Translations under genes and position numbers: made by a program | The notes under the pieces: generated by a model | Database searches by the model: none | What the model was told of the DNA's origin: nothing | What the model saw: the letters and a program-made list of their open reading frames with translations, nothing else | Source: Balneola sp. | Lineage (GTDB): Bacteria > Bacteroidota > Rhodothermia > Balneolales > Balneolaceae | Direction of reading: 5' to 3' | Length of the DNA: 64,000 bases | Assembly (NCBI GenBank): GCA_003712055.1 | Contig: RHLJ01000002.1 | Location: forward strand, 310,001-374,000 | Shown: positions 5,833-35,793 of the stretch, piece by piece | How positions within the stretch are numbered: the first letter of the stretch is position 1 | Layout of the letters: the number at the start of each line of letters is the position of its first letter

Positions 5833-5912
5833 GTCATTCTGAGGTTACCACCGAAGAATCTAAACGGGTAGGTTTACCCGATAAGATCCTTCGCAAGTAT
5901 GCTCAGGATGAC
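5833..5912 (+). repeat. Dispersed intergenic repeat, family A copy 1 (GTCATTCTGAG...CTCAGGATGAC)
   Basis: An 80-base imperfect palindrome that begins GTCATTCTGAG, contains GAAGAATCT and AGATCCTTCG, and ends GCTCAGGATGAC. Three more copies lie at 7075-7152 (inverted), 10058-10137 and 35193-35270. The last 60 or so bases match the copy at 7075-7152 exactly on the opposite strand. All copies are intergenic and none encodes a protein. Confidence 0.85.
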
Positions 5913-7074: not shown

Positions 7075-7152
7075 GTCATCCTGAGCATACTTGCGAAGGA
7101 TCTTATCGGGTAAACCTACCCGTTTAGATTCTTCACTTTCGTTCAGAATGAC
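7075..7152 (-). repeat. Dispersed intergenic repeat, family A copy 2, inverted
   Basis: Read on the minus strand this is the same repeat as 5833-5912: GTCATTCTGAACGAAAGTG, then about 60 bases identical to copy 1 through to GCTCAGGATGAC. The 312-base gap 6964-7275 holds this repeat and a small stem-loop before the next gene; I see no gene in it. Confidence 0.85.
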
Positions 7153-10057: not shown

Positions 10058-10137
10058 GTCATTCTGAGGCTACTGCCGAAGAATCTAGACGGATAGGTTT
10101 ACTCGATCAGATCCTTCGCAAGTATGCTCAGGATGAC
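10058..10137 (+). repeat. Dispersed intergenic repeat, family A copy 3
   Basis: 80 bases from GTCATTCTGAGG to CTCAGGATGAC. It differs from copy 1 at scattered positions in the central part but keeps GAAGAATCTA and AGATCCTTCGCAAGTATG. It is in the same orientation as copy 1. Nothing else is visible in the 218-base gap 10025-10242. Confidence 0.85.
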
Positions 10138-13200: not shown

Positions 13201-13530
13201 TCACTGAACAATATGATTACTGAACTTGAAGAATCACTGGATGAAATTCAGGTGGTGTTGTTTGGAGATGGAATCAAACGAAGACTGGAAATAGATCAGA
13301 CTCCTTCATTAAGCAATAGAATTAATATTGCCATTGGTTCAGGGCTTAATTCTCTTTCTGACCCAACTGAGACTTCTAAAATGGTGAAGCAAATAGCTGA
13401 AACTCAGTTAGGCCCTGTCATTGATTCTCTGAAAGAGATGCTGGAATATAAAATCCCTGCTATTGATGCAGAACTCACCAGGTTAAATGCACCCTGGACC
13501 CCAGGAAGGATTATAGACCTGGATAATTAA
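10243..13530 (+). CDS. Large exported BNR/sortilin-type (VPS10-like) beta-propeller protein
   Basis: 1095 aa with a signal peptide ending SSQAQD. The first 740 or so residues are tandem BNR/Asp-box repeats (for example KSVDGGKSW, KTTDGGETW, STDGGENW, SIDGGEYW), as in the WD40/YVTN/BNR-like proteins often annotated as glycosyl hydrolases or sortilins. About residues 770-960 form Ig-like strands and the last 130 are helical. No sialidase arginine triad could be confirmed, so enzymatic activity is not claimed; a binding or scaffolding role is as likely. The last 36 bases before the end of the coding region are repeated 660 bases downstream. Confidence 0.75.
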   Translation: MEKHITSVLAVLLFLVFVPSSSQAQDEPDDPRYETAWNSLKFRSIGPAFTSGRVSDFAVNPKNTSEFYVATSSGGVWKTTNRGITFKPVFDSQGSYSIGFVAMDPNNHNVVWVGTGENNNQRSVAYGDGIYKSVDGGKSWKHTGLKNSEHIGMIEIDPRDSDVVYVAAVGPLWSEGGDRGLFKTTDGGETWENILEISEHTGINEIHLDPRNPDVIYATAHQRRRHVFTYISGGSESAVYKSTDGGASFRKVMKGMPSGDIGRIGMDISDANPDIIYAVVEAQTGKGGFYRSVDRGESWERRSSYVSSGNYYQEVVADPVDVDLVYVMNTFAGVSEDGGKTFENVGEQNKHIDNHALWIDPDNPNYLLNGNDGGVYESYDRGKTWRFYTNLPVTQFYKVAVDNDYPFYNVYGGTQDNFTFGGPSRSTEPTGLTFNNWVITLLGDGFEPHVDPTNPNIVYSQYQYGGLFRFDKQSGEGQNIIPQPPAGDYSYNWNWDSPFFVSVHDNKRLYYASDRVHRSNDMGQSWEEISSDLTRQIDRNRLEVMDKVWAMDAVAKNASTTPYGNIVALAESPLNEDLLFAGTDDGLIHISTDGGENWRKIEEFPGVPEMTYVNEIVASAHDENTIYAAFNNHKRGDFKPYILKSTNLGRSWTSITNNLPERGSIYSIEEDYIEPNLLFVGTEFSLFASIDGGEYWKKFSKGLPTIAVRDINIQQRENDLVLATFGRGFYIMDDFSALREFSSEVEEKEAHLFSIRDPFQYRPYSPIAASSTVSWLGPKGFQGEDFYLGENPEFGAAFTYYLKEKYKTLEDVRKEEEKEQRKDGETVYYPTYEQLEAESEEEGPFLIFTIRDSEGEVIDEVRSSASKGINRVYWDLTYPDVDQVRTNTSNPKNNLSSGIMVLPGNYTVQMSKSIDGEITILSEPVSFEVKSLNNRTLPAQNPEDVLAFHKELTSLSKSANSARSAYNEINERIDYYKAAARIVESSSLNNMITELEESLDEIQVVLFGDGIKRRLEIDQTPSLSNRINIAIGSGLNSLSDPTETSKMVKQIAETQLGPVIDSLKEMLEYKIPAIDAELTRLNAPWTPGRIIDLDN
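13488..13523 (+). repeat. Left copy of a 36-bp direct repeat, inside the propeller gene's 3' end
   Basis: These 36 bases, encoding APWTPGRIIDL plus flanking bases, recur exactly at 14148-14183. The two copies enclose the hairpin at 13582-13615 and the GIY-YIG cassette. Confidence 0.9.
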
Positions 13531-13581
13531 AACAGATTTGAGATAATATTACTTCGCCATTTTCGAATTTAACTCTGCTGT

Positions 13582-13615
13582 GATTCCGATCCCGAAAACT
13601 ATCGGGATCGGAATC
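13582..13615 (+). terminator. Perfect 14-bp hairpin after the propeller gene
   Basis: GATTCCGATCCCGA (13582-13595) pairs perfectly with TCGGGATCGGAATC (13602-13615) around a 6-base loop. There is no T-tract after it, so it may be a bidirectional terminator or another dispersed palindromic repeat rather than a classical rho-independent terminator. Confidence 0.5.
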
Positions 13616-13690
13616 TTACGTTAGGGCTTTGATTTAAAAATTGTGCATTCTGAGCTTCATTATATATATAACTTCCTACCCATCTTATGG

Positions 13691-14079
13691 GTCATCCCGA
13701 ATTTATTTCGGGATCTTTGTAAGGGTTAGTTTTGTGAAGTGTCTTACAAAGCATGAACAAAGGTTATGTCTATTTTGTAAGTAATTTTAGAAGGTCTAGT
13801 TTATACATAGGTGTAACGAATAATCTTTCAAGAAGGATTTGGGAGCATAAAGAAGGAATCTGTTCTTCCTTTACATCAAAGTATAAACTTACTGTTCTTG
13901 TTTATGCTGAAGAATTTGATTCAATAGCAGATGCTATCGCACGAGAGAAACAGTTAAAGAACTGGCATAGACAGTGGAAGTGGAATCTAGTGAAAGACCA
14001 TAATCCCAAATTAGAGGATTGGTATGAGACTCTGAGAGCTTAGCCTTTTCATAAGATCCTGAAACAAGTTCAGGATGAC
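13691..14079 (+). mobile_element. GIY-YIG nuclease cassette with inverted GTCATCC/GGATGAC ends
   Basis: The left end (13691-13717) reads GTCATCCCGAA...TTCGGGATCTT and the right end (14053-14079) reads AAGATCCTGAA...TTCAGGATGAC. As inverted repeats they match at 23 of 27 positions. Between them lies only the GIY-YIG gene and a 9-bp inverted repeat (13715-13723 with 13743-13751) ending one base before its ATG. The ends resemble those of the non-coding repeat families A and D in this window. That the unit is mobile is an inference; no target-site duplication was recognised directly at its ends. Confidence 0.5.
13753..14043 (+). CDS. Small single-domain GIY-YIG endonuclease family protein
   Basis: 96 aa. 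GYVYFVSN and LYIGVTNNLSRRIWEHK form the GIY...YIG core with the conserved Arg in SRR; the metal-binding Glu is in AIAREKQLKNW. This is the stand-alone COG2827-type domain, with no DNA-binding extension. Such proteins are presumed DNA endonucleases but most are uncharacterised. There is no Shine-Dalgarno; instead a 9-bp inverted repeat with a 19-base loop ends immediately before the ATG and could limit translation. It is the sole gene in the cassette between inverted ends and sits between duplicated copies of the upstream gene's 3' end, which suggests acquisition. Confidence 0.85.
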   Translation: MNKGYVYFVSNFRRSSLYIGVTNNLSRRIWEHKEGICSSFTSKYKLTVLVYAEEFDSIADAIAREKQLKNWHRQWKWNLVKDHNPKLEDWYETLRA

Positions 14080-14147: not shown

Positions 14148-14190
14148 TGCACCCTGGACCCCAGGAAGGATTATAGACCTGGACGACTAA
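14148..14190 (+). pseudogene. Displaced second copy of the propeller gene's 3' tail
   Basis: 14148-14183 is identical to 13488-13523, followed by codons for Asp-Asp and a TAA where the intact gene has Asp-Asn-TAA. Upstream bases still read RL-I before APWTPG but resemblance then stops, and an in-frame TAG lies at 14104-14106. It looks like the remains of an older 3' end, or of a paralogue, separated from its gene by the GIY-YIG cassette. Confidence 0.75.
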
Positions 14191-14198
14191 ATTGAAGG

Positions 14199-35192: not shown

Positions 35193-35270
35193 GTCTTCCT
35201 GAGGCTATTGCCGAAGTATCTAAGCGGCTTAATATCCAATTAGATTCTTCGCAGGTATGCTCAGAATGAC
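35193..35270 (+). repeat. Dispersed intergenic repeat, family A copy 4 (degenerate)
   Basis: Begins GTCTTCCTGAGG, keeps CCGAAGTATCTAAGCGG and ends AGATTCTTCGCAGGTATG...CTCAGAATGAC. It is more diverged in the middle than the other three copies but has the same ends and length. The sequence from 35271 to 35485 shows nothing else I can name. Confidence 0.75.
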
Positions 35271-35674: not shown

Positions 35675-35681
35675 CTGATTA

Positions 35682-35774
35682 GTCATTGCGAGGGAGTCAG
35701 TGGAACACGACCGAAGCAATTTTGCGGAGATTGCTTCATTACGTCTGTCTATCGACAAACTTATTCGCAATGAC
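35682..35774. repeat. Palindromic intergenic repeat D (GTCATTGCGAGG...TTCGCAATGAC)
   Basis: A 93-base unit with ends GTCATTGCGA and TCGCAATGAC that are inverted copies of each other, and internal GAAGCAATTTTGC / GCGGAGATTGCTTC pairs. It resembles the GTCATTGCGAGGAGCGAAG-type repeats found in many phyla. One copy in the window. Confidence 0.85.
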
Positions 35775-35793
35775 GAATAATATGACTCACTCT

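Follow-up and report, generated by a model that had tools for sequence, protein, structure and literature searches.

REPs that carry a CGTC tag constitute one of two large REP superfamilies, which includes dRS3 of Neisseria, and the 2013 survey that covered them left them without an enzyme (PMC3733652). They show the CGTC tag, a stem of 8 to 9 bp starting with AT and a loop of 4 to 5 nt, and they form inverted dimers (Di Nocera et al. 2013, PMC3733652). Their hosts include alpha-proteobacteria, Neisseria (dRS3), Rickettsia (RPE-4/RPE-6) and Bacteroidetes (PMC3733652). The survey concluded that these REPs "apparently lack a dedicated transposase" and made no mention of GIY-YIG genes (PMC3733652), and a REP survey of 2025 mentioned neither GIY-YIG genes nor any transposase (PMC12306157). 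RAYTs, the partners of other REPs, have been described as single-copy genes that apparently cannot mobilise themselves (PMC3116915). No link between GIY-YIG genes and REPs was found in the literature searched, which was mainly open-access. We propose that the enzyme so far lacking for the CGTC-tagged REPs, which would act on them and probably spread them, is best sought among small GIY-YIG nucleases.

The cassette under study occupies positions 13691 to 14079 (+ strand) of the window, i.e. the whole 64-kb stretch of Balneola DNA that was analysed, and consists of a GTCAT hairpin, a GIY-YIG gene and an inverted GTCAT hairpin within 389 bp. Its left end GTCATCCCGAATTTATTTCGGGATCTT (from 13691) and the reverse complement of its right end GTCATCCTGAACTTGTTTCAGGATCTT (to 14079) were equal at 23 of 27 positions, and the single ORF of at least 80 aa between them (13753 to 14043, + strand) was intact and encoded a 96-aa GIY-YIG nuclease (Pfam PF01541, E = 1.1e-15). 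The inverted ends and the lone gene had been described in a sequence-only reading of this DNA and were confirmed. Each end additionally formed a complete hairpin of its own, with a GTC tag, an 8-bp stem, a 5-nt loop and a CT tail. We refer to these hairpins as type I REPs. The left one (13691 to 13716, + strand), of the CGTC/GTCAT kind, has the stem ATCCCGAA/TTCGGGAT, with compensatory pair changes over the copies in the genome, and the right one (14054 to 14079, − strand) is inverted. The end pattern is beyond chance: at three or fewer mismatches the genome contained 82 copies of it versus none of the reversed pattern, and two further GIY-YIG genes had equal ends at equal spacing (L006, which repeats the 389-bp design) or near-equal spacing (L001).

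The window protein scored above the PF01541 cut-off and contained no domain besides GIY-YIG. The catalytic residues are present, and Y18, G20, R28, E65 and N84 are invariant over the seven family members in the genome. The structure model was a bare GIY-YIG domain with a pLDDT of 82, and its nearest folds were UPF0213 and, weakly, Slx1 (all weak fold matches had E > 0.001). Phage records contained no relative at E 1e-8. A hairpin with a GTG tag and a 13-bp stem, ATTCCGATCCCGA/TCGGGATCGGAAT, lies just upstream of the cassette at 13580 to 13620. Furthermore, the last 44 bp of the neighbouring BNR/sortilin-like gene (13488 to 13531, + strand) are directly duplicated with 93% identity beyond the cassette (14148 to 14191, + strand), and the two copies bracket a 616-bp insert that contains it. 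This feature may have arisen as a long target duplication or as the trace of a repair event.

The source genome comprises 3.63 Mb in 9 contigs, and the majority of its type I copies were arranged as inverted pairs whose outer ends read GTCAT. Non-coding units spanned about 105 to 250 bp, and gene-bearing units 389 bp. The unit ends were sharp, with about 0.2 bits per column outside GTC, which is near random, and 1.7 to 2 bits just inside. Inward of the hairpins, about 8 to 10 further bases were common to the units, namely ATCTTTGTRAGG on the left and RTAAGATC on the right. No target-site duplication of note was seen at 18 paired elements of this genome. The hairpins themselves are conserved: all 25 stem variants were 100% paired, and 23 cells were altered on both sides of a pair, compared to 6.4 in shuffles. 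The tag reads GTC(AT), often CGTC. An Rfam search gave no match. Y1 transposases were rejected as the REP partner in this genome, as the two full genes inspected (L041 and L042, RAYT/IS200-like; a third match was partial) carry hairpins of their own that differ from those described here.

Ten GIY-YIG matches were found in the genome. A UvrC-like protein, a long fusion and a broken copy account for three of them and are distinct proteins. The remaining seven genes fall into three sub-clades, each adjoining its own hairpin type. Type I ends, GTCATCCTGAACTTGTTTCAGGATCT, accompany three genes (window, L001 and L006), with only half of the right hairpin kept at L001, and type II ends, GTCATTCCCGCGAAGGCGGGAATCT, accompany two (L002 and L004). 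Type III is found at two genes (L005 and L007), where the cores, such as TGAGGTTACTACCGA and TGAGCATACTTGCGA, have a conserved tandem G-A mismatch; L005 has an intact hairpin on the right side only. The sequence-only reading had suggested that the cassette could be the autonomous form of two sets of non-coding repeats in the window, named A and D. The four A repeats are inverted REP pairs at 5833 to 5912 (REPIN-like), 7075 to 7152, 10058 to 10137 (87% identical to the first) and 35193 to 35270 (with a degenerate left half). Their hairpin, with cores TGAGGTTACCACCGA and TGAGCATACTTGCGA, is related to that of the cassette but distinct from it. Since these are type III cores, the partner of the A repeats is the L005/L007 clade rather than the window cassette. 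The idea that gene-bearing and non-coding units share ends was strongly supported, but the assignment of the A repeats to the window cassette did not; the non-coding units that match this cassette (about 105 to 250 bp) all lie outside the window. Repeat D is probably the inverted GTCAT pair GTCATTGCGAGG...CGCAATGAC at 35678 to 35778, which represents an additional type.

The association between gene and hairpins is specific. Over 76 contigs drawn from numerous phyla (including Bacteroidota, Balneolota, Ignavibacteria, Patescibacteria, Spirochaetes, Proteobacteria and Chloroflexi), hairpins lay within 200 bp on both sides of 38 of 85 clade genes, compared to 3 of 837 other ORFs and 1 of 196 small ORFs (Fisher 5e-40). 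A stricter hairpin detector gave 38 of 79 clade genes versus 8 of 1032 other ORFs, and random 300-bp stretches had hairpins on both sides in 0 of 1428 cases (150-bp reach). Among Balneolaceae relatives, at least one hairpin was present at 31 of the 33 highest-scoring genes and at 2 of the 16 lowest-scoring ones, and the clade genes without a detectable REP were chiefly lower-scoring. GIY-YIG genes without such ends, which the sequence-only reading had set down as counting against it, do occur, but they belong to other subfamilies (UvrC, a polymerase-like fusion and YhbQ-like proteins). In five other repeat-bearing genomes, none of 18 short GIY-YIG genes, mostly of other subfamilies, had REPs beside them. 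Some broad-family GIY-YIG genes (L184-L189, L197-L202, L208, L218, L219, L226 and L229) are flanked by direct repeats of about 60 to 110 bp, most of them with no CGTC hairpin detected, and these are possibly other repeat classes that follow the same logic.

The hairpin type is matched to the nuclease clade. For 54 genes from 18 genomes with at least two hairpin-bearing genes each, the hairpin core of each gene was set against the core at the closest protein relative from a different genome, and hairpins were permuted among the genes within each genome. The mean distance between REP cores was 0.128, compared to a permuted mean of 0.335, and 0 of 5000 permutations was as low. In addition, the median core distance rose steadily from 0 to 0.07 at protein identities of at least 70% to 0.54 at 40 to 50%. 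These two results indicate that the hairpin type follows the nuclease and not the host genome. A survey of the type II pattern in 16 genomes found copies in 6 of 6 genomes with type II cassettes but also in 3 of 6 type I genomes, and is therefore not a clean test.

Repeats and genes also tended to occur in the same genomes. At least five type I repeats were found in 30 of 147 relatives, and by our reading of the matches a clade gene at E < 1e-20 was present in 25 of these 30, compared to about 28 of the 117 others. Abundant repeats in relatives lacking the gene would have spoken against the proposal of the sequence-only reading, and five of the 30 are of this kind (G051, G060, G072, G077 and G083). 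The G083 genome is 81% complete, and many type I copies in G051, G060 and G072 are single or have imperfect stems. In G077, about 100 type I hairpins (L280, L285, L290, L295 and L300) have been amplified inside an unrelated MITE of about 145 bp with ends GGCTTTGCAAAAC/GGCTTTGCAAAACTC. The five gene-free carriers remain evidence against a strict dependence of the repeats on the gene.

Several of the published CGTC-REP hosts emerged from a plasmid collection that was searched with the window protein, without having been selected for. At eight of nine loci examined, the gene lay amid CGTC-type REPs of its host, namely in N. aromaticivorans, A. lipoferum, S. meliloti, Sphingobium, Rhizobium, Shinella, Planktothrix and N. 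gonorrhoeae; the sole exception was the R. tumorigenes locus. In N. gonorrhoeae, the gene is located within a dRS3 array. The only biochemical lead is a GIY-YIG protein of Neisseria, Ssn, which is reported to cut ssDNA in a sequence-specific manner and to influence transformation. Should this hold, some of the biochemistry has already been worked out, in agreement with the picture drawn here.

Several observations indicate that the units come and go. In A. lipoferum 4B, the gene lies in the sufB-sufC interval with one REP pair on either side of it, whereas three related plasmids with flanks 94 to 95% identical have neither gene nor REP at this site. At the fnrL site of Sphingobium, several strains have a REP-gene-REP arrangement, two have a single fused REP and two have nothing. 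The comparison of filled and empty sites, which had been put forward as a check, thus found both states in two genera. With sharp unit ends in the source genome and filled and empty plasmid sites, these elements show one hallmark of an insertion sequence or transposon, a mobile unit with defined ends that is present or absent at the same site. For the window cassette, no base-exact empty site was found, since both congeners lack the cassette but differ in the neighbouring gene as well. The fused Sphingobium REP, GTCACCCCGGGTCAAGCCCGGGGTGAC (L353, 1013 to 1039, and L354), joins the left half of one REP to the right half of the other and is possibly an excision scar, with slippage at an 8-bp direct repeat as an alternative source. 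As a general excision scar this form was rejected, because only 2 such palindromes occurred in 1.95 Mb, no more than for the control heads. Up to 15 matches were counted per genome, and the nuclease copies are under purifying selection, with dN/dS of about 0.06 to 0.1.

Other mobile elements are involved in places. A REP-targeting MITE of genus g17, with ends TTGTAGATGT, contains GIY-YIG cassettes and obscures the empty sites of two cassettes in this genus; part of the cassette copy number is therefore not the doing of the cassette itself. A MITE family with ends TTGTAGATGTYAGRTAATTC (L303, L309, L313-L319 and L170), amounting to about 30 to 42 ends per genome, inserts in the arm of a GTCAT REP and duplicates 3 bp there. 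A GIY-YIG cassette lies within some of its copies. At one site (L166 and L223), this MITE holds a type II cassette in G036, and in G018 the cassette within it is of type I and decayed.

We consider it probable that gene and repeats form a nuclease-REP system in which the nuclease mobilises REP-bounded units. Each nuclease of the small GIY-YIG clade would recognise the hairpins of one REP type. The hairpins on either side of the gene and those delimiting the short non-coding inverted pairs would serve both as nuclease substrate and as ends of the moving unit. Nicking of the hairpins would most likely take place in the GTC tag or close to it, probably in single-stranded DNA, and would free the stretch between two REPs for excision or for copying to other locations. 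Gene-bearing units would represent the autonomous form, and non-coding pairs their derivatives. Binding, cleavage, the single-stranded substrate and a transposition step by the GIY-YIG nuclease are steps that we infer. The pairing of nuclease and REPs is close to certain, and the GIY-YIG clade is likely to be the enzyme that handles CGTC-type repeats; that this nuclease performs the transposition has an about even or slightly better chance. A wider and more tentative proposal, which we rate a little below even, is that, across bacterial phyla, the whole CGTC-tagged REP superfamily is mobilised by the stand-alone GIY-YIG clade as its dedicated enzyme. The superfamily would then be a class of mobile DNA that relies on a single enzyme, a GIY-YIG nuclease that acts on the hairpin ends. 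The orientation of gene and hairpins varies, the gene being within a REP pair in clade I and between two pairs in A. lipoferum and at some type II loci, and a simple transposon model leaves this variation unexplained.

One rival explanation is homing-like spread, in which the nuclease cuts gene-free REPs and repair from a gene-bearing copy brings the gene into existing REP pairs, the REPs multiplying by other means. The GIY-YIG fold is classical among homing endonucleases, clade I genes sit within a REP pair, the gene lies between two pairs in A. lipoferum and at L176 (as against positions without a gene in the L177 array), and REPs greatly outnumber genes. However, none of the related plasmids has a REP at the Azospirillum site, and the Sphingobium site is REP-free in two of four gene-free strains, indicating that REPs and gene come and go jointly there; the growth in REP number would also be left unexplained. 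We regard homing-like spread as unlikely, albeit worth keeping in mind. A domesticated host nuclease that cuts REPs for a purpose of the host, such as limiting foreign DNA uptake, promoting recombination or clearing hairpins, with REPs as recombination hot spots that keep the genes near, would account for the strong purifying selection, for the Neisseria gene within the dRS3 array and for the activity reported for Ssn. The multiple copies (up to 15 matches per genome), patchiness, decayed copies and same-site presence and absence look mobile instead, and in clade I the hairpins immediately adjoin the gene on either side at a conserved spacing, which also speaks against domestication. We judge this reading to be rather improbable.

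It is very improbable that another transposase moves the REPs with the nuclease genes as passengers. The g17 MITE does carry cassettes and target REPs, the G077 REPs lie within another MITE, and Y1 transposase genes are present in the genome. Nevertheless, the Y1 genes checked have other hairpins, the MITEs were seen in few genera only whereas the match of nuclease and REPs spans phyla, and a passenger role would not bring about the agreement between REP type and nuclease clade. As REPs are intergenic and numerous, short genes in repeat-rich intergenic DNA might by themselves have given rise to an artefactual association, but the controls refute this, leaving it a negligible chance: REPs on both sides characterised 38 of 85 clade genes and a single one of the 196 small ORFs on the same contigs, and short GIY-YIG genes of other kinds had REPs in 0 of 18 cases.

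Compared to the published CGTC REPs, the hairpins described here have the same tag, the same 8 to 9 bp stem starting with AT, a loop of 4 to 5, inverted dimers and the same hosts. The difference is that no dedicated enzyme was assigned in 2013, whereas a GIY-YIG partner gene and the Balneolaceae types are added here; a candidate gene matched type by type turns the matter into a question that can be tested at the bench. The window protein shares fold and catalytic residues with stand-alone GIY-YIG proteins (PF01541; UPF0213/COG2827-like), of which one clade only has REPs and the YhbQ-like members tested have none. It also shares the catalytic domain with GIY-YIG homing endonucleases and with Slx1, a nuclease that cuts branched DNA, but at 96 aa it has no separate DNA-binding domain, and it is associated with no intron or known homing site. 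As in MITEs and their autonomous parents, the ends are common to autonomous and non-coding forms; unlike in MITEs, they are complete hairpins and no target duplication was seen. REP/REPIN-RAYT systems likewise have short tagged hairpins, inverted pairs, hairpins flanking the partner gene and a type matched to the enzyme clade, and the nuclease-based parallel to them that the sequence-only reading had suggested is well supported as a pairing by the shared ends, the clade-by-type matching and the filled and empty sites. The tag is GTAG there and GTC(AT)/CGTC here, and the RAYT is described as single-copy and apparently non-mobile whereas the GIY-YIG gene is multi-copy with site presence and absence. 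The partner there is an IS200/IS605-like HUH/Y1 tyrosine transposase and here a 96-aa GIY-YIG nuclease. If this nuclease moves REPs, it would represent a second, independent invention of the REP and partner-enzyme arrangement, with an unrelated catalytic fold.
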